Shown: one piece after another, positions 3,577 through 28,299 of the stretch
Layout: every line of letters starts with the position of its first letter
Numbering within the stretch: position 1 is the first letter of the stretch
From: a virus
IMG/VR virus record: IMGVR_UViG_3300042197_001816
Span: 1 to 28,729 of that record
Direction: 5' to 3' (one strand)
DNA length: 28,729 nucleotides
Notes under the pieces: generated by a model
Told to the model about the DNA's origin: nothing
Databases searched by the model: none
Seen by the model: only the letters and a program-made list of their open reading frames with translations
Program-made: the position numbers and the translations under genes

Positions 3577-5178
3577 TTATCTATTCCTTTTTAGTTCTTC
3601 AAGTTGAATAATTATATCATTTATCTCATCTTGAATTTGTGCCATTGCTAGTTGTTGTTTACCAATAGGATCTTTACTTACATAAGCATCTAAATTTACA
3701 TTCGTGTAAACTGCTTTTTGTGATATATCAGCTTGTAAATAAAAATCTGGATTTGGTATTCCATTATAATATTTAGGTTCGTAAAAAGAACGATTCTCAT
3801 AAACTGCTAAATTTGGAGCACCTGATTTTATGCCATCTAATTTAATTTCTTGTATTGCCTTTGTTTTTTCATCAACTGTTTTTAATTCTCTTTCTACTTT
3901 TTCTAGTGCAGCTTTAACTTTAATATCGATAGCAGGCAACCCTTTTGCATCAACAGTATTCTCTTTTGTTGATACAGTTTTTTCATCAGACGTCTTCGTC
4001 GTCGATCCTTCTGCTTTCGAATTTTCTGATGAAGCAGACTGAGTTGTTGTAGACGATGACTTTTCTGAACTTGACTCTGTCTTCGTATCTGTTTTCTCAC
4101 TGACTGTCGTAGTTTCTTGATTTGATGAAGATGTAGCATTTGACTCCTTAGTTGAAGTTGGCTCTGGGCTTTCAAAAAGAGTTGGGTTTGCTTCTTTCAT
4201 ATCAGCCACAGCTTGCGTGTTTATTTCATTTGCCATTTCTTTATAATCTAAATCACTCATACCAATATCTGCTTCAGTTAGTCCTACTTTAGCAAATTCT
4301 TCTTTAAATATTTGTTTAATTTCTTCTTCACTAATTAATTCTGTTGGTGTTTCAATTGTAATTGTAGGTGGCACATAACAAGTACCTAATGACTCACAAG
4401 ATATAATTGATGTAGTAATTGTTTGTTCAGTTAAAGATGTTGATGTTAATTTATTATATGTTATACTTAAATTAGGATTACTAATATCAACACCTTGCCA
4501 AGTAGCACCACCACCTGAACTTGATAAATCAAATCTCATTTTAGAAGTATATCCTGATGCTGAATTTTCTCCGATAATAATATTATCTAAATTTTTTGTA
4601 CTTCCAGGAATAGAATTATTATTAGAGTATATTCTATTTTGAGTTATTGTTTCACCTGTATCATTATTAATAACTGAATGTGAAAAGTTTAACCAAGAAT
4701 TCCAAGTCCAAAAATGATGTGTATATGCTGAAGCTGATTGTGTAAATCCTAAATTTTGTTCAGGTTTCGTAATACCAACAGATGTTAAATTCTTTTCAGT
4801 TTGTAAATAAGTTTCACCTGCTTTACCTGTAATATAATTGCAACCTAAATCACTTGTTGAACCTGAAGGATTTGAAGTCTTTTGTGTGCCTGTCCAACTG
4901 TTATCACAAAAATTTGTTGAAACTAAATTACCACTATTTGTATTCGCAACCTTTGTCATTATATCAGTTGTAGTTTGATTTGTGATTGTAGTTGTTATAT
5001 CGCCAATGTTTGGTGTGTTTGGTGTATTTACAGTTGATATTGGTGTATTTGTAATTGTAGTTGTAGTTGTAGTATTACCATTTACTGTCACAGTTGTTGT
5101 GGAAGTTTGAGCGATAGCTGAAGTTGAAACAACTCCAATTATTATTCCTACAATGTATAATAGTTTAATTACTTTCAT
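3577..5178 (-). CDS. Large secreted Thr/Ser-rich protein, 533 aa
   Basis: The N-terminus is a clear Sec signal peptide (MKVIKLLYIVGIIIGVVSTS, then AIAQ with an A-x-A type site). A Thr/Asn-rich stretch follows, with runs such as VTVNGNTTTTTTITN. A globular region at about residues 90-260 has four or more Cys and a beta-strand pattern including SSGGGATWQGVDISNPNLS. Residues ~335-415 are a low-complexity Ser/Thr/Glu/Lys linker. The C-terminal region has NRSFYEPKYYNGIPNPDFYL and a final coiled coil. It overlaps the start of the upstream 95-residue gene's end by 14 nt. Secretion of a non-lysin protein by a phage is unusual. A curli-related gene cluster has been reported in pelagimyophages and this cassette may correspond to it, but I see no curlin repeats here. 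Confidence 0.7.
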   Translation of the reverse strand: MKVIKLLYIVGIIIGVVSTSAIAQTSTTTVTVNGNTTTTTTITNTPISTVNTPNTPNIGDITTTITNQTTTDIMTKVANTNSGNLVSTNFCDNSWTGTQKTSNPSGSTSDLGCNYITGKAGETYLQTEKNLTSVGITKPEQNLGFTQSASAYTHHFWTWNSWLNFSHSVINNDTGETITQNRIYSNNNSIPGSTKNLDNIIIGENSASGYTSKMRFDLSSSGGGATWQGVDISNPNLSITYNKLTSTSLTEQTITTSIISCESLGTCYVPPTITIETPTELISEEEIKQIFKEEFAKVGLTEADIGMSDLDYKEMANEINTQAVADMKEANPTLFESPEPTSTKESNATSSSNQETTTVSEKTDTKTESSSEKSSSTTTQSASSENSKAEGSTTKTSDEKTVSTKENTVDAKGLPAIDIKVKAALEKVERELKTVDEKTKAIQEIKLDGIKSGAPNLAVYENRSFYEPKYYNGIPNPDFYLQADISQKAVYTNVNLDAYVSKDPIGKQQLAMAQIQDEINDIIIQLEELKRNR

Positions 5179-6447: not shown

Positions 6448-8740
6448 TTTCTTTTTCCTCTGCTTGTATAAATCCTTTTTTACGATAATCTGCCCATTTA
6501 CTTACAGGTATTCTCACTACTCTTTCTTGTCCTGGTTTTCTTAAATTATTTGGTCTCGCAACTAACATAGTTTTTTTCTGTTCTTTAATTCTTCTTATTA
6601 AATTTAAAACAGATTCTAATTTAGTTGATTCAGGTACACAATTTGGAACTTCTTTTCCATTTTTCTTTTTCATTCCAACTTGTTTATAACCAACCCAACA
6701 AGGATCGTCTTTATCTTTTTCTTTTAATTCTTTTTCCTCTTCATCTTTTTCAGTTTCTTTCGATTCAATATCCAAAGTTTTAGGATATCCTTCTTCTCCT
6801 GGACGTTTTGGTCTTAAACCTTTTTCACGTCTTGCATGTATATTTGCCCAAAGACCTGCACCTGCTTCTTTTAATTCTTCTTCTTTTACTGTTTCAGTTT
6901 TAATTATTTGTTGAGATAAAACTGAATAGCCAGTAGTCTTTAATACTTTTTTAACTTTTTCTTTTGCATCATCTGGCGTTTTAGCGAAAACAACTCTTGA
7001 TAATTCTTTATTCTCACTCTTCTCGCCACCTGCCATTGTTGCTGGATCTTTCACAACTGTTTTGACAGTGTACTTATTCATTTCTTTTAAATTTTCTACT
7101 GCTTCACCAAACTTCATAAACGATGGCATATTCGCTGGTGATAATGGATCTGCTTCTATTTCAGTAGGTAATGGTCCTAATACATCTACAGCTTCTTTTT
7201 TACTTTGTAATCCTTGTAATCTTAATCTAGCTGTTGCTATATCAGATTTAATAATTGCCATTTGTGTTTTAGCATCAGCATCAGCAGGATTAATTTTCCC
7301 TAATTTAGCTAAAAGATCTGACACTCTGTCTTTTAATTTCGTAATTCTTTCTTGTTTATTACCAGTTGCTTCTTGCATTGCTTGTGGTAATAATTTTTTA
7401 TCATACTTAACATCTAACATATCTGCAGTTTTTAACATTTGATTTACTACATCAGATAATTCAGGTGTAATTCTTTTTGCTCTTAATTTTCTTAATCCTA
7501 GATTAATTAATTGTTCAGGACTAGACATTTTTTCAGGATTATCTATTCCTAAAGCACCAGCTATAATTCTTGCTATTTTAATTTTATCAGCTGATGTGAA
7601 GTTAAATGGATTATCAGATGCTTCAGTGATTGATGTTTCTTTAAATGTACCTCTTGGAAGTTTTAAAACTAAATCTGCAACCATACCTGATACAGCATGA
7701 TCAATATTTTTTAAAGCATCTATTCCTTTTATTAAAGGAACTTGAAACACATCTTTATTTTGTTTATAAAATTTTAGTGATTCATCAATTGATTTAAGTG
7801 CATTAATAACTGCGACTGAATCTGTTTCAGCTGAGATTACTGATTCTATAATTGGTTTTAATTCAGGAACAATTTCAAAATTAGAAGTTGTAAATCCTTT
7901 ATAAGAAATTTGATGTTTATCTTTAGCTTCTGTTTTATAATTCATATCTGTAATAACTTCCTTTACTGAGTCAAGCCATTTCTTACTTAACTCTCCATTT
8001 TCGTTTATAACTGTAATGTAGTTTGTTCCTCTGTCCATAACTTCATATACTCCTTTATCGTCTTTAACTGTTGACCCAATTTTAAATACTTCACCTCTGA
8101 AATATTTTTCTCTTAATTCGTTTTGATTATTTGATATATTGATTTCGAAAGATTCTATTTTTAATCCTAGTCCCTTACGAACATCATTATACATTTTTTT
8201 GGTATCAACATCAGTAAGTTTTTTAGTGACACCTTTTTCAAAAGATTTATAATCCCCTTTTGAAGCAGCATCTCTCATCTTACTCGCTGACATACCATCA
8301 GCATCATCACTATCAGGATCTCTTTCTCCTGCTGAATGAATTTCTATTTTACTAAACTTATATTCTCTTCCATTATACTTATTTAAAAGAGATTCAAATT
8401 CTTTTGTTCTATCGCTTCCAACAACTAAATGAATTTCTTTAATTCCTTCTCTCTCAAAACTTTGTAATAATTGTATAATGTTTCCTTTCGCAGCATAGAT
8501 ATGAGCATCACGAAAAGACTTTTCCATATACTTAATTTTATCTTTTTGAGATAATGGATTACTCTTTTTGTCTTGAGTAGCTGTTGTGTAAATACGATAT
8601 GGGATTGATGTTTTCTTTGAAAGTGCCTCAACTTTTGAGATTAAAAGTTCGTGCCCAACTGTTGGTGGGTTAAAGCGACCGAATGCAAATATAAGAGATT
8701 TGTTCGGTAATTCCGATAGTAGTTGTTTTATTGTTTTCAT
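6434..8740 (-). CDS. Cytidylyltransferase/NMN adenylyltransferase-like domain in a 768-aa mosaic protein
   Basis: The N-terminal ~180 residues are a nucleotidyltransferase of the HxGH superfamily: FAFGRFNPPTVGHELLISKV (19-38) has the T/HxGH ATP site, and GMSASKMRDAA matches the ISxSxxR-type motif. These enzymes join a nucleotide to NMN, pantetheine-P or similar substrates; the substrate here is not evident. A KOW-like beta segment follows near residues 210-265 (GEVFKIGSTVKDDKGVYEVM). Then come long helical regions, a charged stretch and a Cys pair in CWVGYKQVGMKKKNGKEVPN near residue 690. The last part, RIPVSKWADYRKKGFI, is again a phage-type tail. The mosaic build suggests a virion-linked or prohead protein with an enzymatic head. 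A CTAAATA element lies 33 nt upstream of the ATG. Confidence 0.8.
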   Translation of the reverse strand: MKTIKQLLSELPNKSLIFAFGRFNPPTVGHELLISKVEALSKKTSIPYRIYTTATQDKKSNPLSQKDKIKYMEKSFRDAHIYAAKGNIIQLLQSFEREGIKEIHLVVGSDRTKEFESLLNKYNGREYKFSKIEIHSAGERDPDSDDADGMSASKMRDAASKGDYKSFEKGVTKKLTDVDTKKMYNDVRKGLGLKIESFEINISNNQNELREKYFRGEVFKIGSTVKDDKGVYEVMDRGTNYITVINENGELSKKWLDSVKEVITDMNYKTEAKDKHQISYKGFTTSNFEIVPELKPIIESVISAETDSVAVINALKSIDESLKFYKQNKDVFQVPLIKGIDALKNIDHAVSGMVADLVLKLPRGTFKETSITEASDNPFNFTSADKIKIARIIAGALGIDNPEKMSSPEQLINLGLRKLRAKRITPELSDVVNQMLKTADMLDVKYDKKLLPQAMQEATGNKQERITKLKDRVSDLLAKLGKINPADADAKTQMAIIKSDIATARLRLQGLQSKKEAVDVLGPLPTEIEADPLSPANMPSFMKFGEAVENLKEMNKYTVKTVVKDPATMAGGEKSENKELSRVVFAKTPDDAKEKVKKVLKTTGYSVLSQQIIKTETVKEEELKEAGAGLWANIHARREKGLRPKRPGEEGYPKTLDIESKETEKDEEEKELKEKDKDDPCWVGYKQVGMKKKNGKEVPNCVPESTKLESVLNLIRRIKEQKKTMLVARPNNLRKPGQERVVRIPVSKWADYRKKGFIQAEEKENENS

Positions 8741-11889: not shown

Positions 11890-12064
11890 AATACATTTCA
11901 GGCTTTGGTATTTCTTTTAAAGAAATAATTTTAGCATTCATATAATTTTCAATTCTGTTTCTCGCATCTTCTTCGCTGTCAGAATAAAACCAAGATTTTA
12001 TTTGTTTTTTACTCTCGTTAAGTATTATTTCAAACTCCCAAGCTTTATTTAAACGATCTTTCAT
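11843..12064 (-). CDS. Hypothetical protein, 73 aa
   Basis: This is a small cytoplasmic protein with AWEFEIILNESKKQIKSWFY, then a short helix SEEDARNRIENYM and a strand AKIISLKEIP. The order strand-strand-helix-strand suggests a compact alpha/beta fold like other tiny phage proteins of unknown role. The last ~15 residues are Asn/Lys-rich and overlap the next membrane protein gene. Its ATG overlaps the endonuclease VII stop as ATGA. No function can be assigned. Confidence 0.55.
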   Translation of the reverse strand: MKDRLNKAWEFEIILNESKKQIKSWFYSDSEEDARNRIENYMNAKIISLKEIPKPEMYYANNKKNKTIKENKI

Positions 12065-12537
12065 TTTTTACTTAATACGTGTTTAAAGTTTGCTTCAATT
12101 GGAAAATATTTCTCACGATTTTTCATTTTAAGATATTTTATCATTTTTTGTAATATATTAGGATTTTCTCTTATTCTTGCTAGAGCATTATTACAATCAT
12201 GGCAAATCCATCCTCTTGCCTTTCCAGTTTTATGATCGTGATCTAATACGAATGCTCCATTATATCCTACATCCTCTTTTTTGCGTTCACAAAGAGGACA
12301 TGTGTATTGTTCATCTGGCTTTTTATATATTTTTTTAAGATTAAATAATTGTGTAGATGGCTTACTTCTACATTGTTTACATTGATTTAATGGTCTATAA
12401 CCTACCTCTGAACCTCTATGTCTTTTTGAAAATTCTTCTACTGGTTTTTGTTGTTTACAAGACTTACAATAATGTAATAAAATTCCTTCACCTAATGGGT
12501 TTATTATTTCACCTAATATATTTAATTTTTTTTCCAT
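12061..12537 (-). CDS. 49: Recombination endonuclease VII (gene 49 type)
   Basis: Endonuclease VII resolves Holliday junctions and branched DNA before packaging. The core YTCPLCERKKEDVGYNGAF then VLDHDHKTGKARGWICHDCN contains the His-metal finger (D99-H100-D101-H102, N116) and two zinc Cys pairs (C80/C83 and C112/C115). An extra N-terminal zinc-like module (C24/C27 and C53/C56) precedes it, as seen in several phage relatives. At 158 residues it matches the T4 protein's length (157). It follows two microprotein genes, the nearer of which overlaps its start by 16 nt, and it overlaps the next gene by ATGA. The symbol follows T4 usage. Confidence 0.9.
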   Translation of the reverse strand: MEKKLNILGEIINPLGEGILLHYCKSCKQQKPVEEFSKRHRGSEVGYRPLNQCKQCRSKPSTQLFNLKKIYKKPDEQYTCPLCERKKEDVGYNGAFVLDHDHKTGKARGWICHDCNNALARIRENPNILQKMIKYLKMKNREKYFPIEANFKHVLSKK

Positions 12538-12689: not shown

Positions 12690-12834
12690 ATATTTCAAAG
12701 TGATGGTGAAGTTCGTTAATATCTCTTGTGAGACTAAAATCTTTTTTTCTATTGTATTGTTTTTTATTCTTTACAATTTTTTGTTTAAATTTTGGTGTTC
12801 TTAAAGACTTAGCTACTGGATTTCTTTTTTTCAT
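12682..12834 (-). CDS. 50-aa basic microprotein (RNPVAK...YNRKK type)
   Basis: The frame starts MKKRNPVAKSLRTPKFKQKI and contains VKNKKQYNRKK, then an acidic, His-rich end (INELHHHFEIYD). The N-terminal pattern RNPxAKxLRTPKFxQKxVKxKKxYxRKK is one I recall from many short phage and bacterial proteins, which supports a real gene. The ATG overlaps the stop of the first 2OG-oxygenase-like gene as ATGA, and the end overlaps the 55-residue gene. A strongly basic 30-residue half suggests nucleic acid or ribosome binding, but the role is unknown. Confidence 0.7.
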   Translation of the reverse strand: MKKRNPVAKSLRTPKFKQKIVKNKKQYNRKKDFSLTRDINELHHHFEIYD

Positions 12835-13400
12835 CTATTCCCCCACAATTCTAATGCCTTTGACATTGTGATTTTCTTCCATTCATTATCTAAATATTGT
12901 TCGAAAAGAACAGCAACAGTCATACATTTTATATCACTGTTTGTACAATTTAATCCATGAGGAATTGAAACATTTACAACTGATGGTCTTCTTATAAGTT
13001 CTGAACGAATAAGTTCGCAGTCATTATCATGATATCTTAATGTAATTTTATTTGGATCAAGCTCAGAATCTTCAGCATCAATCCACTCATACATAGGTAT
13101 GGCAATTCCGTTTTTAAATTTATACCATTCCATATAAGCATTAGAATCGCCATAACTGAAATTCATTTTAATTGAACCACTTGGTGATTCTGAGTCGACA
13201 TGAGTACCTAATCTTCCTCTAGCTGGAGTGACGAATAATTCTATTTGAGCAATTTCGAATATATCAGTTTCAAAAGATTTAAGATTAGATGATGCATAGT
13301 TTTTATCTAAAATATGTTTTCCTGCAGGAAATTTTTTAATTATTTCCATATTTTGTAATGGATCAAATTGTTCTTTTAAATGAAAAAAAAAATTATTCAT
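12831..13400 (-). CDS. 2OG-Fe(II) oxygenase-like protein, paralogue A, 189 aa
   Basis: Iron- and 2-oxoglutarate-dependent oxygenases use an HxD...H triad. Here GTHVDSESPSG gives H67/D69 and VSIPHGLN gives H148, separated by a strand-rich region with NFSYGDSNAYMEWYKF. The same order and sequence flavour (HVD, then N-x-x-Y-S-x-G-D, then PH near residue 148) recur in the 196-residue protein at 13708-14298, so the two are paralogues. This copy lacks the Arg ~9 residues after the distal His that usually binds 2-oxoglutarate (it has NCTNSDIK), so activity may differ or be lost. Its ATG overlaps a membrane microprotein stop. Context suggests DNA base or nucleotide modification. Confidence 0.65.
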   Translation of the reverse strand: MNNFFFHLKEQFDPLQNMEIIKKFPAGKHILDKNYASSNLKSFETDIFEIAQIELFVTPARGRLGTHVDSESPSGSIKMNFSYGDSNAYMEWYKFKNGIAIPMYEWIDAEDSELDPNKITLRYHDNDCELIRSELIRRPSVVNVSIPHGLNCTNSDIKCMTVAVLFEQYLDNEWKKITMSKALELWGNR

Positions 13401-13573
13401 TTTATATTCGCAAGTGCTTGTTTAATACTAGGATATTCAACACATGAATATATGTAAAGTAGTAATAATATTAAGAATGCTACTATATAAAGATCATTAG
13501 TTGCAACTCTAAGAAAAATATAAACATTAAGACAAATTTTATCTTTTAAATAATTATATATTTTTTTTATCAT
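13397..13573 (-). CDS. 58-aa membrane microprotein
   Basis: Read from the gap between the two oxygenase-like genes. The N-terminus is basic (MIKKIYNYLKDKI) and one long hydrophobic segment follows (LYIVAFLILLLLYIYSCV), then EYPSIKQALANIK. The ATG overlaps the last 20 nt of the preceding microprotein gene and the TGA overlaps the next ATG, so the frame fills the gap exactly. An inner-membrane protein is expected. The function is unknown. Confidence 0.6.
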   Translation of the reverse strand: MIKKIYNYLKDKICLNVYIFLRVATNDLYIVAFLILLLLYIYSCVEYPSIKQALANIK

Positions 13574-13727
13574 ATTCAGTTATCCAATCTATAAAATTAC
13601 CTATTCTTTCAAGTATGTATCCTAAAAATACTACAATTATCATTACAACAAATAATATTGATATACCTATCCAGAATAAAATATTAATAAATCCCCAAAG
13701 GATTGCTCTAATTAACGATGTAATCAT
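13554..13727 (-). CDS. 57-aa membrane microprotein
   Basis: The frame starts MITSLIRAILWGFINILFWI and continues with a very hydrophobic stretch (ISILFVVMIIVVFLGYI), ending ERIGNFIDWITEYDKKNI. One long or two short spans are possible. An AGAGAGG ribosome site lies about 6 nt upstream of the ATG, inside the end of oxygenase paralogue B, which it overlaps by 20 nt. It forms a pair with the following 58-residue membrane protein. Holin-like or ion-channel roles are conceivable, but no motif supports one. Confidence 0.6.
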   Translation of the reverse strand: MITSLIRAILWGFINILFWIGISILFVVMIIVVFLGYILERIGNFIDWITEYDKKNI

Positions 13728-14298
13728 TTAAAACCTCTCTCATATTTGATATTGGTATTCCCCAGTCTTTTGGTAAAGCTGGTGGATTAGTTCCATGTGG
13801 ATATAGAGTGACAGAAATTGCTTTCCTTGGTTCACTATATGTTCGTACACTATGTGGTTGACCACTCACTATACAAGTTGGTGTTCTTACAGTAGTTCTT
13901 TCAACTTCTTCTACTTCGTTCTCATTAAATGTATAACTATAATCATCATAGCGACCATCGTCTTGTTCTCCGTCAGTTGCTCTTGGTACCCAAGTTGATT
14001 TTGGTTTAAACCAAAGATTATGGTGATCTCCCTTACTATAAGCCCAATTCAATTTACATTTTTCTGTAAACTCAACAGCATCAACATGTATTTCCATTGT
14101 ATAGTTTGCAGGAAATGAAAAAACTTCAGCATCCCAATACAGTAATTTATGTTTTTTAAAAAAGTCAACAGCTTCTGGATTAAAATACTTATTTGGTACT
14201 TGTATAAAACAAGGTGGCAAATCAAAAAACCATTTCATACCCTCTTCACTTAAAGGATCTTGAAAAGGAAGTTTTAGATGAAAATAATTTTTAGCCAT
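13708..14298 (-). CDS. 2OG-Fe(II) oxygenase-like protein, paralogue B, 196 aa
   Basis: The motifs are MEIHVDAVEF (H71, D73), KLNWAYSKGDHHNLWF, GQPHSVRTYS (H149) and EPRKAISVTL (R158). This is a full HxD...H...R set for iron and 2-oxoglutarate binding, with spacing typical of the family, so this copy looks catalytically complete. The start MAKNYFHLKLPFQDPL parallels paralogue A (NNFFFHLKEQFDPL). The family hydroxylates nucleotides, amino acids or small molecules. Lying in one run with a TET/JBP-like enzyme, a glycosyltransferase and a HAD phosphatase, it may act on the same modified base. The ATG overlaps the end of the HAD gene by 8 nt. Confidence 0.7.
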   Translation of the reverse strand: MAKNYFHLKLPFQDPLSEEGMKWFFDLPPCFIQVPNKYFNPEAVDFFKKHKLLYWDAEVFSFPANYTMEIHVDAVEFTEKCKLNWAYSKGDHHNLWFKPKSTWVPRATDGEQDDGRYDDYSYTFNENEVEEVERTTVRTPTCIVSGQPHSVRTYSEPRKAISVTLYPHGTNPPALPKDWGIPISNMREVLNDYIVN

Positions 14299-14740
14299 TA
14301 AATATTTCCTTATTTACCATATTCTTTTCCCAAAAATATAATTTTACGTTTTTATTAATTTTTAAAATACCTTTTAATACTTTTTTATTATCTTCTGTAT
14401 GTTCAACTGCACCAACTGAATTAATTGCATCATTCTTAAATTTTACTACATTGTTTACAGTTCTTGGTACGTTTAATAAAGATAGTGAAATTACTCTTCC
14501 AGGAAAATATTTATTTAACCAATTCATCGTTATTTCCCATGTGCGTTGGTCTTTCTTCCTTGCTGAAATTACATGAAATTTATCTTCAGTTGGTTTATAT
14601 AATAACTCAGCAGAATTATACCAATCATATAGAAATTCTTTTCTTGCTTTTCTCTCAGCCCCATTCATGTGTCCCCATTTTTTTATATTTGGTGGTGGGT
14701 TTAATGCAAGAACACCATCCATATCGTAAGATACTATCAT
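14291..14740 (-). CDS. HAD-superfamily phosphatase, 149 aa
   Basis: Haloacid dehalogenase phosphatases use an Asp nucleophile. Motif I is YDMDGVLA (D6, D8), motif II is HVISARK (S59), the motif III Lys is in VVKFKND (K100 or K102), and motif IV acids lie in EHTEDNKK (E113-D117). The protein is short, with only a small cap (residues ~15-48), like nucleotidases and polynucleotide 3'-phosphatases of T4-like phages. Its ATG overlaps the glycosyltransferase TGA as ATGA. Removing phosphate from a sugar or nucleotide intermediate in DNA modification fits the context, but a general nucleotidase is also possible. Confidence 0.8.
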   Translation of the reverse strand: MIVSYDMDGVLALNPPPNIKKWGHMNGAERKARKEFLYDWYNSAELLYKPTEDKFHVISARKKDQRTWEITMNWLNKYFPGRVISLSLLNVPRTVNNVVKFKNDAINSVGAVEHTEDNKKVLKGILKINKNVKLYFWEKNMVNKEIFNG

Positions 14741-15741
14741 AATAAAATTAAATCTATGTTTGTTTCAGCTTGAACGATTGATTTTTGTTTTTCCCAAATT
14801 AATTTACGTTTTTCATCAGATAAAGATGTGAATTTAGTTAAGTCCTCTGCAGTTTCTACAGGATATGTCCAATTTAAACCATCATTCCCAGATGGTGCAC
14901 AAACTGGAATACCAGCATAAAGTGCATGAAAAGCACGACCAGTTCTCCATCCAGATGTTTTATGTTTACTATCATAAACAGTTAAACACCCTTTATAATT
15001 TCTATAAAATTTTCTTCGATCTTTTTGTTGTGGATTTTCAATAACGTTTACATTAAAATCTGTCCACTCTTTTGGCTTTCCTGATATTTCAAGACTTGGT
15101 GATTTTAAAAATTCTTTAAAGTGTTTTGTTCTTCCGTTTGGTCTTCCAATATAAACAGTTTTATCAATATTGCCATTCGAAAAAGATTCAAATGTCATTC
15201 CATTCGCCATTGGTAAATCTACAACTCTTACACCCATTGGACATTTAAGAATTGTTGAAACTTCTGCAGAGTTAGTTGCATTTGCTGCAACTACCCATCT
15301 ATCCCATTTTTCATTTGGTAATAACTCCCAAAGGAATGGTAGATCAGGATCATCATTAATGAATATTATTTTACCAGAATGTGATTTAATTAGTTCAACT
15401 GTTTTATCCCAATCTTTTTTATAAAATTGTAGATTTGTTCCACCAAATTCTAATATAAGTATATCACAATTTGTGTAATTATCAACAGATGTAAATCCAT
15501 CTGCTGCTGTTGCTTCTGTTGGTGATGAAAAAGGAATTATTGAATAACCAGATGCGAATAAGTTCTTAAAAAGTGCAATCCTTTTCTCTACCCATGCACC
15601 ACGAACACCAGATTCTTTATTTGTTAATCCTATCTTACCAGATACTCTCCGATAACCAAGTTTTAATCCCTTGTTTGAAGAATTAGCAGTATAATACCAA
15701 TCTAGTGCTCGTTCCTCTCCTAAAAATTCATGGAGAGACAT
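14737..15741 (-). CDS. Glycosyltransferase, probably acting on modified DNA bases
   Basis: This 334-residue protein shows the C-terminal half of a GT-B glycosyltransferase: a strand and helix YKGCLTVYDSKHKTSGWRTG followed by RAFHALYAGIPVCAPSGNDG, the usual donor-sugar region (...R.xHALxAGxPV). The N-terminal half has a Rossmann-like pattern with CDILILEFGG and KIIFINDDPDLPFLWELLP. No membrane anchor is seen, so it is cytoplasmic. It begins 2 nt after the TET/JBP-like gene stop. Comparative work on phage TET/JBP enzymes found them paired with glycosyltransferases that cap hydroxymethyl bases, so a DNA glycosylation role is the best inference. Glycosylation of a protein or lipid cannot be excluded. 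Confidence 0.75.
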   Translation of the reverse strand: MSLHEFLGEERALDWYYTANSSNKGLKLGYRRVSGKIGLTNKESGVRGAWVEKRIALFKNLFASGYSIIPFSSPTEATAADGFTSVDNYTNCDILILEFGGTNLQFYKKDWDKTVELIKSHSGKIIFINDDPDLPFLWELLPNEKWDRWVVAANATNSAEVSTILKCPMGVRVVDLPMANGMTFESFSNGNIDKTVYIGRPNGRTKHFKEFLKSPSLEISGKPKEWTDFNVNVIENPQQKDRRKFYRNYKGCLTVYDSKHKTSGWRTGRAFHALYAGIPVCAPSGNDGLNWTYPVETAEDLTKFTSLSDEKRKLIWEKQKSIVQAETNIDLILL

Positions 15742-15743
15742 GG

Positions 15744-17042
15744 TTAAAAAAATGCTTCAAGTGAAGATTTATTTGCTTCAGGATGGTATTTGTGTAATAT
15801 TTCTGTACCTAATTTAGATGTTAGATACTTATACCATTCTTCTTCTTTCCACATATTTTCTGAAACACCATTCCAAAGTTCTCTTTGTAATGGATGGTTT
15901 TTATTTCTACGTCTTTCCTCAACATAATTTTTTCTTGTTAGTTCATAATCCCAAGAACCAAGTTCTAGCATTTTTTCTCTGAAATAACAAACGAAAGAAA
16001 TACGTTCTGCTTCAGGATCTTCAACAATCATTTCAGTATTTCCATGAATACCCTCATGATTGTTAATTAATAATAAATCTCCTGGACGTATATTTACAGC
16101 AACTCTGTATTCTGGTAGTACTAGATAACCTCCTTTGTACTTACCATTGTTTGATACTACTGTAAGATTACTGAATCCTTCATTTAAATCACCAGCATCT
16201 CTATGTGCTGCTGTTCTAAAAGTTTTATTTACAGTCGCTGTAGTGAATACAGTTCCTGGAATAATAAACTTTGGATCCATTTTATCACAAGCTTCTTTTT
16301 GTTTCGCAAAACGTTCAGGCAGTAATTGTTTAAAACCATCTGAAAGTTTTTGTAAAAATGGGAATCCCATAGCAAATTTCTCAGGATTCTTTTCAGTGAA
16401 AGCTGTTGCTCTTCCATAAGGAATACGAGGATATCTATCAAAATATCCAGCAATACCAGACCACACTGCTTGTGCATATGAAGTTGTTGATGTTAATTTA
16501 CTCTTAACTCGTATTGCTTCTTTCACTATTTCATCACGAGGTAATGATTTTATCTCATTCAACCACTCTTCAAAGATAAATCCTTCATCAGTGACTTTAT
16601 TCTTAAGCCACACAGATCCTCTCGATCCTGCTGCTGTTTTATCTTTACCTTTGTATTTTTCTGTAATTGTTGTTATAGGATTAGAACCATCAAGTGTAGT
16701 TTCATACTTAGATAATGCTTCAAGCATTTCTTCTTGATATTCCGTCACCCAGTCACGACCACCAAGTTTTGTACCTTTTGGTCCTGCTGCCACACCACGA
16801 TTTTGTGTTTCGACTGCTGCCTCACGAAGACCTTTATATGCTAGATCTTGTTGCTCTTTCGTAAACCAATTTTTTCTAAATTTAAACAGAATGTTTTTCT
16901 CGCTGTTTATCCCATCAATAGATGGAGCATAGAAATCACAATCATATTCCACCAAAGTGTCATAGTGTGAATGATCTACAAAAGTCGCAAGCAAATGTTC
17001 GCAATCAATCTTATTTGCTGCGGTTATCACCTTTGTCGTCAT
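15744..17042 (-). CDS. TET/JBP-family 2OG-Fe(II) dioxygenase (5-methylpyrimidine oxidase)
   Basis: TET/JBP enzymes oxidise the 5-methyl group of cytosine or thymine in DNA. Residues 278-285 read AAHRDAGD (H280, D282). They are followed by KGGYLVLPEYRVAVNIRPGD, NNHEGIHGN (H333) and ERISFVCYFR (R347), a complete HxD...H...R set with the GGxLVLPE strand typical of the phage branch. The N-terminal half has the family-like TQNRGVAAGPKG near residue 79 and a helical DNA-handling region. The start has an AAGGA ribosome site. The gene lies directly after the helicase gene and is followed by a glycosyltransferase. The protein ends SSLEAFF, almost the same as the DNA polymerase end SSLENFF. No cytosine methyltransferase is in the window, so the substrate base must come from elsewhere or be thymine. 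Confidence 0.87.
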   Translation of the reverse strand: MTTKVITAANKIDCEHLLATFVDHSHYDTLVEYDCDFYAPSIDGINSEKNILFKFRKNWFTKEQQDLAYKGLREAAVETQNRGVAAGPKGTKLGGRDWVTEYQEEMLEALSKYETTLDGSNPITTITEKYKGKDKTAAGSRGSVWLKNKVTDEGFIFEEWLNEIKSLPRDEIVKEAIRVKSKLTSTTSYAQAVWSGIAGYFDRYPRIPYGRATAFTEKNPEKFAMGFPFLQKLSDGFKQLLPERFAKQKEACDKMDPKFIIPGTVFTTATVNKTFRTAAHRDAGDLNEGFSNLTVVSNNGKYKGGYLVLPEYRVAVNIRPGDLLLINNHEGIHGNTEMIVEDPEAERISFVCYFREKMLELGSWDYELTRKNYVEERRRNKNHPLQRELWNGVSENMWKEEEWYKYLTSKLGTEILHKYHPEANKSSLEAFF

Positions 17043-17057
17043 CTTTTTTCCTTTATG

Positions 17058-18461
17058 TTATTCATCGAATTTAAACGATGATGTTGTTTCTGCCTTTATT
17101 CTTTCACCTATATTTCCTTTATCAAATACAGGTGTAGAATCTCCTGCGTCAGCTAGTGCCATATGTCTTTTCATATGTTCTGTTTCAAGATTATATACTT
17201 TCATCTTGTTTCTTTCAACACCAACGACAAATCTCTTATAATAATTAGGATCGTTATAACGATTCTTCAATTGTTTAACACTTGCTATTCCTTCTTTAAT
17301 CATATCTTCAGTAGCAATAATCGCAAACATAAAGTCAGCTGTTGCTGGAAGACCAAATGATTCAGAAGTATCTTCTAATCCTAGATCAGAAGAAGTAAAT
17401 CCTTGTCTTGTTGTTTGAGTCGCAGTCATTATAGGTAAATCATATTGTACTGCTAATCCTCTTAATTCCTCTGCTATACTCTTAATAACAGTGTAAGAAT
17501 TATTATTTCCACCATATTTTAATCGTGCAGAAACACACAAATTTAAATAATCTACGTAAATAACATCTGGTTTAAAATCTTTTTTCATTTTTAGTTCGTC
17601 AAGTAATGATCTAAAATGACCAACATGTGCTGTTGCTGTAGGAAACTCTTTTATAACAAGTTTTCCTTTAGTTTTTTCTTTGACTCTATCAACACGTAAA
17701 GTAAAATCTATTTTCTCTAGAATTTTTAATTCGTCCATAGTGACATTTAATAAATTCGCATCAATACGTTCAGCAATCTTTTCTTCAGACATCTCTAGTG
17801 TTATATAAAGAACATTAAGATTATTCATTAAATTTGCTGCAGCAAAATGACATAAGAACAAAGATTTACCAACTCCTGTTCCTGCTAAAGCAACATTTAA
17901 AGTTTTATTACTCACACCACCACGTGTAATAGTATTAAATAAATCTATATCGAATGGTATTTTTTCTTCTACTCGTTTATAAAAATCAAAACGATCATCT
18001 GCATTCTCAAGATAATCGTGTCCAACTGATTTATCAAAAGAAACTGCAAGTGCATCAGATAATAAAGAAGGAATACTATCTTGTTTTCTTACTTTATCAC
18101 GACCATCTATAATCTTAATACTGTCCATAATAGAATTATAAACAGCTTTATCTTTACAAAATTTTTCAGTAGCATCAACTAACCACTTTGAATTTATATC
18201 TTCTTTGTTCTTTAAATCTTTTGTATAAGCTTGTGCTTGTTGATAGTCAGTTTCAAATAAAGTTTTATCATTACCGAGTTCAATATCAATAACTTCAACT
18301 GTAGCTGGTTTATTAAATTTAATAAAAAATTTTAATATTTGACTAGCGATTGCTCTTTCAATTTTATCTTGAAAATATTCTTCACGTAAATGTGGTACGA
18401 CTTTACGAGCATAATCCTCGTCATGAAGTAAATTTTTAAGTATTGTTGTTTCTATTCTCAT
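17058..18461 (-). CDS. 41: Replicative DNA helicase (T4 gp41/DnaB family)
   Basis: This is the hexameric 5'-3' helicase of the phage replisome. The ATG at 18461 gives 467 residues starting MRIETTILKNLLHDEDY, which lines up with the start of T4 gp41 as I recall it; a longer frame begins with GTG at 18503 and I reject it. The RecA-type ATPase has a Walker A ALAGTGVGKS (ending near residue 200), a LYITLEMSEEKIAERIDANL helix and strand, and a Walker B PDVIYVDYLNL. MTATQTTRQGF matches the sensor region. There is no good ribosome site at the ATG, but it lies inside the end of the preceding gene, so coupled translation is likely. The next gene is the TET-like dioxygenase, which places modification next to replication genes. 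Confidence 0.95.
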   Translation of the reverse strand: MRIETTILKNLLHDEDYARKVVPHLREEYFQDKIERAIASQILKFFIKFNKPATVEVIDIELGNDKTLFETDYQQAQAYTKDLKNKEDINSKWLVDATEKFCKDKAVYNSIMDSIKIIDGRDKVRKQDSIPSLLSDALAVSFDKSVGHDYLENADDRFDFYKRVEEKIPFDIDLFNTITRGGVSNKTLNVALAGTGVGKSLFLCHFAAANLMNNLNVLYITLEMSEEKIAERIDANLLNVTMDELKILEKIDFTLRVDRVKEKTKGKLVIKEFPTATAHVGHFRSLLDELKMKKDFKPDVIYVDYLNLCVSARLKYGGNNNSYTVIKSIAEELRGLAVQYDLPIMTATQTTRQGFTSSDLGLEDTSESFGLPATADFMFAIIATEDMIKEGIASVKQLKNRYNDPNYYKRFVVGVERNKMKVYNLETEHMKRHMALADAGDSTPVFDKGNIGERIKAETTSSFKFDE

Positions 18462-18948
18462 TAGTTTTAGGTTTTGTATATGCTTCCATTTCTTCTTTTC
18501 CACCTCTGAATAAAATGGTTTTGTTTCTTGCTTGTTCTTCTATACATGCCATAAGAAAATCACCCAAATGTCTTTCAAGTTGTTGTTTACTTTCTGGGAT
18601 TTCTACATTAAATTTATGTAGTGATTTTTCTACATTCGCATCATATTCGTAAAATAATTTAATATTACCATCTGTTTGATTTTCAAATGATACTTTACCA
18701 AATGATACAACTACATTTTCAAGTATTCCATTTTTAAATCTAATTTCATTTGCTCCATACTTACCTTTAGTTTCTAAAGTTTCATATGGTGGCACTTTTA
18801 CTGGTTTAGATTTAAGATATTCGTCTCTTGCAGCTTCATATGCTTCTTTAGATTCATATGAATTGGGATCAATAAAAGGAAATAAATTTTCCTTTGTAGC
18901 TGGTATTTCCGAATTATTCGGATTTTGGTTTTGTTTTTCGTCCACCAT
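18436..18948 (-). CDS. Conserved unknown between uvsX and the helicase gene, 170 aa
   Basis: The likely start is the ATG at 18948 (MVDEKQNQNPNNSEIPATKE); a longer frame from a GTG at 18975 has no support. After a disordered, Asn/Pro-rich N-terminus, a beta-rich middle reads RFKNGILENVVVSFGKVSFE, followed by a helical end FLMACIEEQARNKT and FRGGKEEMEAY. In T4, gene 40 occupies this position (uvsX-40-41), but I see no similarity I can name, and related marine phages carry an unnamed protein here. It overlaps uvsX by 35 nt and the helicase gene by 26 nt. A helicase- or recombinase-partner role is inference from position only. Confidence 0.65.
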   Translation of the reverse strand: MVDEKQNQNPNNSEIPATKENLFPFIDPNSYESKEAYEAARDEYLKSKPVKVPPYETLETKGKYGANEIRFKNGILENVVVSFGKVSFENQTDGNIKLFYEYDANVEKSLHKFNVEIPESKQQLERHLGDFLMACIEEQARNKTILFRGGKEEMEAYTKPKTNENRNNNT

Positions 18949-20011
18949 CTTTTTTTTCTTCTGGTTGTATTTCACTTACCTTATCTGATAGTTCGATAGT
19001 AGAACCATATTTAAATGCTTTTTGAGTGTATTCATTTATTTTATCTAATACTTCTTTTGTAAAATATTTTTCAGGATTTTCTTTAATAGCTTTACCAAAT
19101 ACTTTTGTTCCACCAACGTCAATCCTACCACCCTCATCTTTCCATATACCAGCATCAACTGCAACATCAATTAATCCATAGTATCTATCAAGACCTGTTT
19201 CGTATGATAGTTTAATTTCAGCTTTTAAAAATTCTCTTGTAAATCTAGATTTTTGTAGTGTAGCTTTTATAATATTACCAACTACATTTTTATCAGAATC
19301 TCTATCTTTTGATTTACTTAAATATACGATTGTTGATGCAGCATATTTTAAACCAGAACCACCACCCATCTCTTTTGTTGGAACATAGGCACCGATTACA
19401 TCATAAGTATGATTTGTGACAATCATTGGCATTTGTAATTTAGATAATCTTAGTGCAAGTACTCTAAAAGCACCACGAATTAATTGTGCTCTTGTCATAT
19501 CACGAGTGTCGTTCCCCTCAATAATATCTTTTACTTCTTTTTCAGTTGAAAGATTACCAAGTGAATCTAATACGAGTAAAATAGGATGTCTTGCTTCAAG
19601 TGGTACTTTATCAACGTTGTCACAAATTTTTGTAGCTTGATTTCTAAATTCTTGTACTGTTGATACAGGTATTAATACAAATCTCTTAGGATCTATTCCT
19701 CGTTCAGCCAACATATCCTTAGTAATAGCACCCTCTGTTTCAAAGTATATAATGCCTGCTTGTTTTTCTATTTGTTGAAAAGTTTTACAAATTCCTAATG
19801 TGAAGAATGTTTTTCCACTTGATGGTTCTCCTGCTAATGCAGTAATTTTGTTTGCTGGCAATCCATCATAGATATTACCAGATAATAAAGCATTAAATAT
19901 ATAAGATCCAGTATCTACAAATGATGTAGAATCTCCGACTAAATCACCATCAGCTGTACCAGCATATTCGTTATTAATATCTTTTATTACGTCTTTTAAA
20001 AAATCAGGCAT
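18914..20011 (-). CDS. uvsX: RecA-like recombinase UvsX
   Basis: UvsX forms filaments on single-stranded DNA for recombination-dependent replication and repair. The ATG at 20011 gives 365 residues starting MPDFLKDVIKDINNEYAG, has AGGGAGA about 9 nt upstream, and matches the N-terminus of cyanomyophage UvsX as I recall it; the longer frame to 20056 is not needed. Walker A is ALAGEPSSGKTFF (residues 59-70), Walker B is PILLVLDSLGNL, and the loop region GGGSGLKYAAS follows. The acidic, Lys-rich C-terminus overlaps the next gene. The preceding coiled-coil gene overlaps the start by 8 nt, and a strong promoter lies upstream of that pair. Confidence 0.95.
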   Translation of the reverse strand: MPDFLKDVIKDINNEYAGTADGDLVGDSTSFVDTGSYIFNALLSGNIYDGLPANKITALAGEPSSGKTFFTLGICKTFQQIEKQAGIIYFETEGAITKDMLAERGIDPKRFVLIPVSTVQEFRNQATKICDNVDKVPLEARHPILLVLDSLGNLSTEKEVKDIIEGNDTRDMTRAQLIRGAFRVLALRLSKLQMPMIVTNHTYDVIGAYVPTKEMGGGSGLKYAASTIVYLSKSKDRDSDKNVVGNIIKATLQKSRFTREFLKAEIKLSYETGLDRYYGLIDVAVDAGIWKDEGGRIDVGGTKVFGKAIKENPEKYFTKEVLDKINEYTQKAFKYGSTIELSDKVSEIQPEEKKDGGRKTKPKSE

Positions 20012-20171
20012 TTGTATATTTCTCCCTTTTATTGATTGTATCTTGTAATTCAACAATATCTTCTTCTATTTTTTGAAGATTATAATTGTTTTTTAAAAAA
20101 TTGGTTGATTCAAACTCGTGTTCTTGTTGAAGTTCTTTTAATTCTATTTTTAATTCTTTTAAGGTTTTCAT
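20004..20171 (-). CDS. Small coiled-coil protein, 55 aa
   Basis: The likely start is the ATG at 20171 (MKTLKELKIELKELQQEHEF); the longer frame would begin upstream of the promoter -10. Almost all of the protein has heptad spacing (LKELKIELKELQ, LQKIEEDIVELQDTI), so a dimeric coiled coil is expected. It is the first gene after the promoter at 20196-20224 and overlaps uvsX by 8 nt, so it may serve as a uvsX leader cistron. No Shine-Dalgarno is visible. No function is assigned. Confidence 0.55.
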   Translation of the reverse strand: MKTLKELKIELKELQQEHEFESTNFLKNNYNLQKIEEDIVELQDTINKREKYTNA

Positions 20172-23053: not shown

Positions 23054-25558
23054 TTAAAAAAAATTCTCTAAACTACTTGTTTCTTCAGTTTTCCATCCCA
23101 ATGGTGTAATAATTAACTTTAAAGCATCTAAAAATACTTTTTGGAACATTGTATCATAATCAATATATTGATCTATTTTAAACTCACTTGGCAATTTATC
23201 TAAAAACGCAATTACATTTGTGGATTGTAAAGGGTTTGGTGTTTTAAGATGTATAAATTTAATCTTATCGCTTTCTCTTATAAGTTCTATTTTTTTCGTC
23301 AGTTTCATTTTATTTACAAAATGATTATGCATTAAAGCACCACGAGTATGCATTGGTGTGGATAGTTTATAAATTTTTACAGGATCGGCATATTCATTTA
23401 TACCCTGACATGATCTAGGAAATGCTATTTGTTCTGGTTTTAAACTATAAAATTCTTTTCTGTAATTATTAATGAAATTAAATAATTCATATTGATTGCC
23501 ATATAATATAATAGGAAGAGCATCTTTAAGTTTTTTTCTTACAATCATCGGTGTACTTGATTTAACAATCTCTAACCCCATTATTTTAAACTTAGGTGTG
23601 GTGTAAGAAACACCCTCATTATCTAATACTGAAAGAATGTATCTTTTCTTAGCAGTCCATATTGCTCTGTCAGAAATACTTTCTCGTTTCATTATCATTT
23701 TATTCTTAGCATTATGACGTTTTGCTAATTCATCATAACAAGTATTAATATATGGTATAATTTTATCTTGACAAATTTTATCTATAAATGCTACAATTTT
23801 AGATCTATCAGGTACATCTAAGAATGCTTTCTCTACTATTTTTTCAAAGTTTACATATATTGAATCTGTATCAACAGCGATAATATAATCTTTATTTTCT
23901 GTTTTTAATATTTTATTCACATAATCATTCATTTTATTATGAATCCATTTTATGGCAAGTTGTCCACCAAGTGTAATTGCTTCAGCCATACGTATATCGA
24001 AATATCTAAAATGCTCATTACCTATTGCACCATAAGCACTATTTAAAGCAATCTTATAAGCCATTTGTTCATTGTTATATTTTGATATAACTTTTTTAAG
24101 TTTAGGATCTTTTGTTATTTGATATTGTTTTTCTGCTTCTATCAATTTCTTTTTAGCAATATCTCTTTGAGCATAAAAAGTGTTCATAATATTAGGAAGC
24201 ATTCCCTCTATTTTATTTGAATAGACTGAACCATTAGCAGCAACAGTTTCACCATCCTGGAATTCAGCTGGATTGTTTAGATAATGTTCTACTCCTGATT
24301 TGTAAGTTTTATTTTGAATTGTTTCTGGCGAAATATTATAATGCATAATTAAATGCGGATAAAGTGAAGTTAAGTCAAACCCAACAACCCATTTATGCAT
24401 TCCTAAGATTGGATCTTTTACATATGCTCCTTCGAACTGTTGACTTTTTCCTACTGGCTTTTTAGGTGGGATAATAATATTTTTTTGTATAAGGTGATTG
24501 TGAATAATCATATCCCAAGTTCTTACTTGAGAATAAACATCAGTAAAATTAACTTTCGCTTTATATGCAAAAGTGACAATTAATTCTAAAAGACGCATTT
24601 TATCTTCTAGTTGAGTAATTAATTCAGTATCTCTTATATTATAATCAACAAACTTATTCCAGTTCTTCGTGTAAAATTCTTTAAATGAAGCATACTCACT
24701 ATGATCTAATTTGGTTATACCTAATTCATCTTGTGCTATATCAACAAGCTTATAAGATTCTTTATTCGTATAAGTATATTTTTTATACAAACTCATATAA
24801 TCTAAAAGAGATGTTCCCTCAAAATCAATATATGTTGTTTGTTTATTTCTTACCGAAACTGTTTTAGATGAAATAAAAGACCATGGACTTAGTTTTTTAG
24901 CAGTATGATCGCCTAGCAATAACTGAATTCTTTTATAAAGATAAACTGTGTCAAATGCACCTACGTTCCAGCCAGTAATAATATCTGGACAATTTTTATG
25001 CCACCACTTAATAAAATCATCAAGCATAGCATTCTCATCAGGGAAAGCACGATATTCAACGTCTGTGCGTTCACCTGTATATTTTTTTAAACCCCATGTA
25101 ATAATTTTTTTAGTATGAATGTCTTGTACTGAAAGAAGTATAATAGACTCGGTTGGATTATTTACGTCAGGAAATCCATTCTCAGTTGTTGTTTCTATAT
25201 CTAAAGAATATATTCTTATTTTGTAATAATCAAAATCTAAACTCGCTTCAGGATATGCTTCATTAATATATTGATGAGTAAACGAAAGCATTCCATAAAC
25301 ATCAAAATTAGAGATTGTTTTAAATTCATCGAAAAACGTTCTTGCATGTTTCATAGAGTCAAAATTAACTCTATAACAAGGTTTTCCGTCGAGTGTTTTA
25401 TAGGGTGTATTGCCAGTTCCTTTGGTAATATAACAGTGCGGTTTAAAAGGGATTCGTTCTTGGATTCGAGTACCAACATCGGTGACTGCTCGAACGAGCA
25501 CATCGTTGGCTGTAGTAGAAACGTTAGTGTAAAAATTTGTACCTATTTTAGAATTCAT
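23054..25558 (-). CDS. 43: DNA polymerase, family B (T4 gp43)
   Basis: This is the replicative polymerase with 3'-5' proofreading. Exonuclease motifs are SLDIETT (D120, E122), GWNVGAFD (196-203) and YNIRDTE (306-312). Polymerase motifs are FDLTSLYPH (D395 motif A), NSAYGAIGN (506-514, with K502) and VDTDSIY (563-568, motif C). All catalytic Asp are present. At 834 residues it is slightly shorter than T4 gp43 (898). The C-terminus TSSLENFF resembles the sliding-clamp-binding tail of T4 gp43. The leader has a small hairpin beside the GAGAAAG ribosome site, as in the T4 and RB69 autoregulated leaders. It is probably transcribed from the promoter at 26117. Confidence 0.97.
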   Translation of the reverse strand: MNSKIGTNFYTNVSTTANDVLVRAVTDVGTRIQERIPFKPHCYITKGTGNTPYKTLDGKPCYRVNFDSMKHARTFFDEFKTISNFDVYGMLSFTHQYINEAYPEASLDFDYYKIRIYSLDIETTTENGFPDVNNPTESIILLSVQDIHTKKIITWGLKKYTGERTDVEYRAFPDENAMLDDFIKWWHKNCPDIITGWNVGAFDTVYLYKRIQLLLGDHTAKKLSPWSFISSKTVSVRNKQTTYIDFEGTSLLDYMSLYKKYTYTNKESYKLVDIAQDELGITKLDHSEYASFKEFYTKNWNKFVDYNIRDTELITQLEDKMRLLELIVTFAYKAKVNFTDVYSQVRTWDMIIHNHLIQKNIIIPPKKPVGKSQQFEGAYVKDPILGMHKWVVGFDLTSLYPHLIMHYNISPETIQNKTYKSGVEHYLNNPAEFQDGETVAANGSVYSNKIEGMLPNIMNTFYAQRDIAKKKLIEAEKQYQITKDPKLKKVISKYNNEQMAYKIALNSAYGAIGNEHFRYFDIRMAEAITLGGQLAIKWIHNKMNDYVNKILKTENKDYIIAVDTDSIYVNFEKIVEKAFLDVPDRSKIVAFIDKICQDKIIPYINTCYDELAKRHNAKNKMIMKRESISDRAIWTAKKRYILSVLDNEGVSYTTPKFKIMGLEIVKSSTPMIVRKKLKDALPIILYGNQYELFNFINNYRKEFYSLKPEQIAFPRSCQGINEYADPVKIYKLSTPMHTRGALMHNHFVNKMKLTKKIELIRESDKIKFIHLKTPNPLQSTNVIAFLDKLPSEFKIDQYIDYDTMFQKVFLDALKLIITPLGWKTEETSSLENFF

Positions 25559-26931: not shown

Positions 26932-27384
26932 TTACTTAATTGCTACTTTTTTTGGTTTTTTATGTTCTGGGATTATTCTCTCTAGAATAACTTTTAACAT
27001 ACCATTTAGATACTGAGCATCTTTTACTTCGATATTCTCAGATAATGCAAACGTTCTTTCGAAAGCACGATTTGCTATACCTTTGTATAACTCAACATCT
27101 TTTGATTCTGATTTTGTTTCATCAGATTTTGATTCACCTTTGATAACTAATTTGTCATCTTCTAGTGTTATTTCAATGTCTGATTTTGCAAAACCAGCTA
27201 CTGCCACTTCGATAACATATTTGTTCTCGTCAACTTTTTTTAAGTTGTATGGTGGGTAGTTTGGTATCATTTTGCCAAATGACTCGTGTATATCGTGGAA
27301 TCTTGCCAATTGGTCATCGAATCCAACGAAAAATTTATCGAAGTCTTTGAATGCGTCGTTAAAAAAAGTAGGAAGTCTAGTCAT
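26932..27384 (-). CDS. Small heat-shock protein Hsp20 (alpha-crystallin family)
   Basis: sHsps hold unfolding proteins in large oligomers. The alpha-crystallin domain runs from about residue 44 (PPYNLKKVDENKYVIEVAVA) through GFAKSDIEITLEDDKLVIKG to the conserved LNGMLKVILERIIPEHKKP. The I-P-E near the end matches the I-x-I/V-type tail region. The N-terminal arm is short and Phe/Asp-rich (FFNDAFKDFDKFFVGFD). At 150 residues it resembles bacterial IbpA and the Hsp20 common in cyanomyophages, thought to aid virion assembly. It overlaps the phasin-like gene by TAATG and ends at a strong hairpin. Confidence 0.93.
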   Translation of the reverse strand: MTRLPTFFNDAFKDFDKFFVGFDDQLARFHDIHESFGKMIPNYPPYNLKKVDENKYVIEVAVAGFAKSDIEITLEDDKLVIKGESKSDETKSESKDVELYKGIANRAFERTFALSENIEVKDAQYLNGMLKVILERIIPEHKKPKKVAIK

Positions 27385-27587
27385 TACTTTCCTCCTTTGC
27401 TAACTGTCGCAACAAATGTTTCGCCTAAACTCACGAATGATTTTGCTAATGTTTTGCTAAAAGTTTGAGTAGCATCAATAATTGAATTTACTGGTTCTGC
27501 TACTTTTGCGTCTTTGATGAATGTTTCAACAACAGACTTTTGTGCGTTTGACAGAGTGTCAATCGCTTGGTTTATTTGTGCTATCAT
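27384..27587 (-). CDS. Phasin-like small helical protein, 67 aa
   Basis: An all-helical protein starting MIAQINQAIDTLSNAQKSVV, followed by ETFIKDAKVAEPVNSIIDAT and a Ser/Thr/Ala-rich amphipathic helix (FSKTLAKSFVSLGETFVATV). The repeated small residues and amphipathic pattern look like phasins, the surface proteins of storage granules, but the similarity is only in style. The AGGAGG ribosome site 5-6 nt before the ATG is one of the best in the window. Coupling to Hsp20 by TAATG suggests joint high expression, perhaps as a chaperone partner. Confidence 0.6.
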   Translation of the reverse strand: MIAQINQAIDTLSNAQKSVVETFIKDAKVAEPVNSIIDATQTFSKTLAKSFVSLGETFVATVSKGGK

Positions 27588-27690
27588 TATATCCTCCTAT
27601 GAAAGCAAGGTTATTATTTACTACTGACTTTCCACTATTGGAACAATCAGGTATGTTATACTCGATACAACGATCGAATATACACTATTA

Positions 27691-27725
27691 TATAGGTATT
27701 ATTTATAAAATTACTAGTACCTATA
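27691..27725. promoter_or_regulatory. Inverted repeat enclosing a TATAAATA late-promoter-like element
   Basis: TATAGGTA (27691-27698) and TACCTATA (27718-27725) are perfect 8-bp complements. Between them the minus strand carries TATAAATA (27707-27700), identical to the T4 late -10. The only gene downstream is the phasin-like/Hsp20 pair, 113 nt away. The ~140-nt space from 27588 to 27730 holds no gene that I can see. Late expression of Hsp20 would fit, but AT-richness makes chance matches possible. Confidence 0.42.
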
Positions 27726-27730
27726 CAATA

Positions 27731-27886
27731 TTATTTATTTAAGTTATTGATTTTATTATCTTTTTTTTTATTCAATAGACTTAAATTCCGTGTCTTTGAG
27801 CCCATTTTCTTACCTAAAATAAGACCCATAAAGAATGCCATAACTATAAAAGCAACTATTAATAAAGTATGCCAAATATAAAACAT
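27731..27886 (-). CDS. 51-aa membrane microprotein
   Basis: Read from the gap, the frame MFYIWHTLLIVAFIVMAFFM continues GLILGKKMGSKTRNLS and ends in a Lys/Asn-rich tail. A single N-terminal span with a basic cytoplasmic tail is expected, and the AFFMGLILGKKMG pattern resembles many short phage anchors. The ATG is 1 nt after the stop of the upstream secreted-protein gene (TAAT-ATG), so coupling is likely. Function unknown. Confidence 0.6.
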   Translation of the reverse strand: MFYIWHTLLIVAFIVMAFFMGLILGKKMGSKTRNLSLLNKKKDNKINNLNK

Positions 27887-27887
27887 A

Positions 27888-28298: not shown

Positions 28299-28299
28299 A

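Follow-up and report, generated by a model that had tools for sequence, protein, structure and literature searches.

The stretch of DNA analysed here, which we call the window, is a virus contig of 28,729 nucleotides (28.7 kb, GC content about 30%) covering positions 1 to 28,729 of the IMG/VR record IMGVR_UViG_3300042197_001816, and it carries a group of enzyme genes that probably serves to modify the DNA of a T4-like phage. An earlier note, made from the letters alone, had placed there five enzyme genes in one coupled block directly after the helicase gene, and all five were found on the minus strand: a TET/JBP-type Fe(II)/2-oxoglutarate (2OG) dioxygenase of 432 amino acids (aa) (15744..17042; hereafter TET), a glycosyltransferase (GT) of 334 aa (14737..15741), a HAD-superfamily phosphatase of 149 aa (14291..14740; hereafter HAD) and two 2OG-oxygenase-like proteins, OX1 (13708..14298) and OX2 (12831..13400). 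The coupling holds for the first four genes, with gaps of 15 nucleotides (nt) between helicase and TET and of 2 nt between TET and GT, followed by overlaps of 4 nt (GT/HAD) and 8 nt (HAD/OX1). It does not extend to OX2, which lies 307 nt away from OX1, with two small open reading frames of about 57 aa each in between (13397..13727, minus strand) whose homologues are present in the related locus L019. The block is anchored upstream by a conserved T4 gp41-like replicative helicase of the DnaB family (17058..18503, minus strand; Pfam DnaB_C, 2e-16), and of the 101 TET loci that were compared, 71 have a helicase cluster upstream of TET, at most three genes away.

TET matches the Pfam family Tet_JBP (PF12851; 6e-23, residues 197-356) with 81.3 bits against a curated cut-off of 34.9, as well as phrog_24024 (1e-173), and a profile built from ten sequences of its family reaches human TET2 (4e-5). 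The residues H280-x-D282, H333 and R347 align with the catalytic residues of TET2 and are invariant in 10 relatives, which bears out the full catalytic set claimed for this enzyme. Given the two profile matches and the aligned HxD/H/R residues, the protein belongs with the TET/JBP enzymes and not with the amino-acid hydroxylases, which had been considered as an alternative. Relatives of this TET are encoded on more than 590 IMG/VR stretches, and the cultured phages DLP_6, Cr30, C48C1 and S-CBWM1 encode the same family. The GenBank entries of DLP_6 (27179-28525), Cr30 (59353-60681), S-CBWM1 (3729-5165) and HTVC112P (7599-8507; records L028, L029, L031 and L032) label their TET/JBP proteins as 'SNF2 DNA repair protein', apparently a misannotation that has spread from entry to entry.

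The sequence of the second enzyme gives a sub-threshold Pfam match (Glyco_trans_1_2, E-value 0.07), and its assignment comes from structure prediction. An AlphaFold model of moderate confidence (mean pLDDT 77, pTM 0.79) was searched with Foldseek against the PDB, where the top 12 matches were all Gtf3/GtfC (E-values 5.7e-8 to 2.9e-5, TM score about 0.53 for the nearest), and by this model the protein is a glycosyltransferase of the two-Rossmann GT-B fold, for which we propose 5-hydroxymethyluracil (5hmU) as acceptor. An identity as TAGT was discarded, as no PF20691 match was found in the window or its close relatives; such matches are found in DLP_6, S-CBWM1 and Cr30. The third protein has no Pfam or NCBIfam match, and was recognized by its motifs D6-x-D8 (DxDGV), S59 (SAR), K102 and E116-D117, all four invariant in 8 homologues as expected for the HAD phosphatase that had been announced, and by its travelling with GT. 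No useful match came out of sequence-profile searches of the PDB with alignments of GT, HAD and the OX proteins. A search from the GT side yielded 68 GT loci, in most of which, within the short stretches read, TET stands beside GT, an association of TET, GT and HAD that is far beyond chance. The pairing of TET with a glycosyltransferase in a probable DNA hypermodification module, already advanced in the earlier note, is upheld. In L096 (6519-7634) and L097, a gene for a SulP-type sulfate permease is inserted between GT and HAD.

Comparison of the loci reveals that the region between the TET stop and the OX1 start (14291..15743, minus strand) is an exchangeable slot, filled by GT-HAD in the window, by an amidoligase/ADDT/kinase set in L017 and by a lone P-loop kinase in L019. 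The L017 enzyme is the sister of the window TET and 89% identical to it, yet the slot beside it holds a different set, and the DNA homology of the window with either L017 or L019 ends at the TET stop codon and restarts at the OX1 start codon. Among the 101 TET loci, the slot holds GT-HAD in 24, a GATase-amidoligase-[GNAT or low-molecular-weight phosphatase]-ADDT-P-loop kinase set in 26, GATase-GNAT-ADDT-kinase in 23, FkbM-ADDT-inositol-1-phosphate synthase-kinase in 3, the kinase alone in 3, a GT4 glycosyltransferase alone in 6 and TAGT in 4, the rest being other arrangements. GT-HAD and the ADDT/kinase cassettes (24 versus 59 of 97 loci) never overlap. On the TET tree, at least 4 changes to or from GT-HAD are needed on well-supported branches, and 10 between GT and ADDT/kinase. 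GT-HAD thus belongs to a range of decoration cassettes that replace one another beside TET, and since these are never found together, have been swapped repeatedly on the TET tree and have gene-precise borders, all of them probably act on one and the same TET product. In GT-HAD loci, this pair occupies the position of the kinase cassette; what was read of the 68 GT loci, in short stretches, contains neither an ADDT nor a kinase gene, and whole records were not searched for kinases. Likewise, ADDT/aGPT-PPlase was not found in the window or in the GT-HAD records searched, and is present in L017, L027 and Cr30. A set that possibly makes an inositol-type DNA adduct combines ADDT, myo-inositol-1-phosphate synthase, a small HAD and a P-loop kinase in L024 (3041-6699), L080 (9299-13499), L085 and Cr30 (L029, 12024-17891), joined by an FkbM methyltransferase in the first three and not in Cr30. 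A kinship between its HAD and that of the window found no support in a profile comparison, which gave a probability of 7.5% with the ED motif alone in common.

Regarding the base that TET would oxidise, the searches covered 44 records, including nine with lengths of 139-177 kb, of which four are complete isolate genomes. The Pfam search for a C5-methyltransferase (PF00145) found nothing in any of the 44, although it gave matches in 10 of the 14 control genomes and in a single record from a different TET group; scanning three long relatives for the motifs revealed no such enzyme either. Of the thymidylate-synthase family (PF00303), to which the dCMP/dUMP hydroxymethylases belong, no member was found in 43 of the 44 records. 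Since both enzymes are so scarce, the group seems to lack self-made 5-methylcytosine (5mC), 5-hydroxymethylcytosine (5hmC) or 5hmU precursors, and thymine would be the only abundant 5-methylpyrimidine offered to this group of TETs. In this line, the ADDT of L017 shows 28.8% identity, across 98% of its length, with the ADDT proteins of Salmonella phage Det7 and related phages, Det7 being presumably a close relative of phage ViI. The DNA of ViI contains bases derived from 5-hydroxymethyldeoxyuridine (5hmdU) that are made via a 5hmdU DNA kinase (PMC6449724). Moreover, distant GT-HAD homologues (33%) in two records without TET, L243 and L244, are followed by the 5hmdU-kinase helical protein HMUDK_hel (9e-26) and by a thymidylate-synthase-family enzyme, which carries Asn at the position of ThyA residue 177, as in thymidylate synthases, where the CMP hydroxymethylase MilA has Asp; Asn177 is the dUMP-type residue (PMC8670742). 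Altogether, the missing methyltransferase and hydroxymethylase, the Det7-type ADDT and the 5hmdU-type neighbours of the TET-less GT-HAD make 5hmU a more likely TET product than 5hmC. It had been left open whether the methyl mark came from elsewhere in the genome or the target was thymine; the second of these options is now favoured, and the first, as a 5mC pathway, finds no PF00145 enzyme behind it in the records searched. The locus is thus best read, with fair though not high confidence, as a post-replicative hypermodification module of a T4-like phage in which TET makes 5hmU from thymine and GT-HAD glycosylates it.

Several observations weigh against this reading. A rival is the cytosine pathway, in which 5mC provided by the host or by an unseen phage methyltransferase would be oxidised by TET to 5hmC and then glycosylated by GT, like in the phage TET clusters that have been characterised. 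Contigs from metagenomes need not be complete, and Pfam could overlook a C5-methyltransferase that has diverged. Cr30, the one exception among the 44 records, encodes a thymidylate-synthase-family protein (PF00303), and in L161 (1862-5715) a flavobacterial-phage-type TET, from another group, adjoins a short PF00145-like methyltransferase. The cytosine pathway could draw on D285 of the window TET, which stands at the position of TET2 N1387 and would presumably match D234 of NgTet1. R355 stands at the position of TET2 H1904, and we take both TET2 residues to be base-contacting; as the fungal CcTet likewise carries R at the second position, this comparison does not discriminate between the two substrates. 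Also on the side of that pathway, every phage TET characterised to date reportedly acts on 5mC and is found together with C5-methyltransferases (Burke et al. 2021, as cited by others). On the cassette side, the 24 GT-HAD loci include many that hardly differ from one another, which leaves few independent cases, and any role of HAD in the pathway is a guess. Nevertheless, the lack of PF00145 extends to the four complete isolate genomes, the GT-HAD found without TET belongs, like the alternative cassettes, with the 5hmdU type, and host 5mC would be too sparse for a dedicated pathway, so that the cytosine pathway is judged unlikely. Downstream of the TET/methyltransferase pair of L161 there are also genes for an ADDT-like protein and a P-loop kinase.

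The earlier note had taken OX1, OX2 and HAD as a hint of a longer pathway, perhaps leading to a multiply oxidised sugar base or to one that is phosphorylated and then trimmed. In a rival reading of this kind, all five genes would form a single route, with OX1 and OX2 oxidising the sugar or the base further. Both proteins keep H71-x-D73, H149 and K159 invariant and are paralogues (OX2 is 22-25% identical to the OX1 family), and the OX1 model (pLDDT 90) is a double-stranded beta-helix. They are putative 2OG oxygenases, with the HxD...H...K set present and no family match, and Foldseek places OX1 nearest to cupin/JmjC folds, including the protein hydroxylases NO66 and MINA53, at low TM (TMq up to 0.43). 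A five-gene pathway draws on the adjacency of the genes and on L084, where OX1 sits inside an ADDT cassette, a counter-example to its independence. The synteny says otherwise: OX1 stays in place where GT-HAD has been replaced (L017, L019) and is missing beside GT-HAD in L086, L087, L096, L097 and L134, while OX2, a diverged copy gained or lost as a single gene, is missing at the junction in L019 and located elsewhere in L015. Elsewhere in the related L025 record, a FabF-like ketoacyl synthase has three further tandem OX paralogues next to it (L038, 4419-6535 and 6493-7734). Hence OX1 and OX2 were set aside, OX1 being a lineage companion that probably stands outside the core pathway, and a single route through all five enzymes is very improbable. 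Equally improbable is the idea that TET and GT target RNA, protein or surface glycans next to the helicase by coincidence, since, even if GT-B folds like Gtf3 glycosylate proteins, the cassettes that replace one another in the slot include ADDT/P-loop kinase sets with relatives acting on DNA bases, and TET adjoins replication genes in most loci.

Following the thymine-based reading, TET would hydroxylate the methyl group of thymine in the phage DNA to 5hmU, as kinetoplastid JBP hydroxylates thymine in DNA. GT, whose GT-B fold is a model prediction, would then put a sugar on the hydroxyl to give a base-J-like glycosyloxymethyluracil, which would shield the phage DNA from host nucleases. HAD may support the branch that handles the sugar, where its most likely task would be to remove phosphate from a sugar-phosphate or a by-product, and OX1 and OX2 would have unrelated or merely auxiliary roles.

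The remaining genes of the window include a T4-type replication set made of the gp41-like helicase, UvsX (18914-20056), which is nearest to those of cyanophages and of Pelagibacter phage HTVC008M (about 57% identity), and a family B DNA polymerase (23054-25558). An endonuclease VII-like HNH gene (12061-12537) has no homologue in any of the 101 compared loci and may be a mobile endonuclease, since the relatives lack it at that position. At 485-2934, an adenylate-kinase-like protein adjoins a nucleotidyltransferase-fold protein.

Among the closest known systems is base J of kinetoplastids, made by JBP1/JBP2 and the glucosyltransferase JGT, with which the window shares both types of component, a TET/JBP enzyme and a glycosyltransferase, and the proposed order of thymine hydroxylation to 5hmU followed by O-glycosylation. 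The differences are that these are phage genes, that the GT-B enzyme is nearest to Gtf3, that a HAD is paired with it, that no J-binding domain was found and that the role proposed here is protective and not epigenetic. ViI, M6 and phiW-14 hypermodify thymidine with ADDT, P-loop kinase and HMUDK-type genes like those of the sister loci and have 5hmdU as a common intermediate; in these phages, a 5hmdU nucleotide from a thymidylate-synthase-family hydroxymethylase is incorporated, whereas here TET would make 5hmU in DNA and the window cassette would add a sugar with no phosphate route. TET-derived hydroxymethyl pyrimidines were reportedly predicted as starting points by Iyer et al. in 2013. In the TET cytosine clusters of phages, as others cite them from Burke et al. 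(2021), TET also lies beside a glycosyltransferase, and TAGT-type enzymes occur in some relatives of the window TET (S-CBWM1, DLP_6, L135/L144); those clusters need a co-encoded C5-methyltransferase, of which none was found here in 44 records, and the window GT has no match to the TAGT model. A TET-initiated hypermodification of thymidine has already been suggested for Rhodococcus phage Tonitrus, where a five-gene set with a TET-like protein, aGPT-PPlase2 and a 5hmU kinase is so annotated (PMC11955845); that set contains a ParB-like nuclease, and neither a GT-HAD alternative nor cassette exchange is described there. Three points appear to be new: the TET-GT-HAD branch, read as a probable route of the base-J kind, the lack of both methyltransferase and hydroxymethylase across the group, and the exchange of cassettes with gene-precise borders, with a priority that is not certain given an incomplete coverage of the literature. 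Whether the whole amounts to a viral base-J-type system, with thymine hydroxylated in situ, a new GT-B family with its HAD partner, and TET as the fixed platform for cassettes (glycosyl, aminoacyl/amidoligase or FkbM/inositol) exchanged gene for gene, is in our view an evenly balanced question.

If the proposal is right, a large family of aquatic phage TETs acting on thymine would link the DNA armour of phages to the origin of eukaryotic base J. It would also explain why these phages have neither hydroxymethylase nor methyltransferase, and would provide a natural set of interchangeable enzymes, each of them decorating 5hmU.

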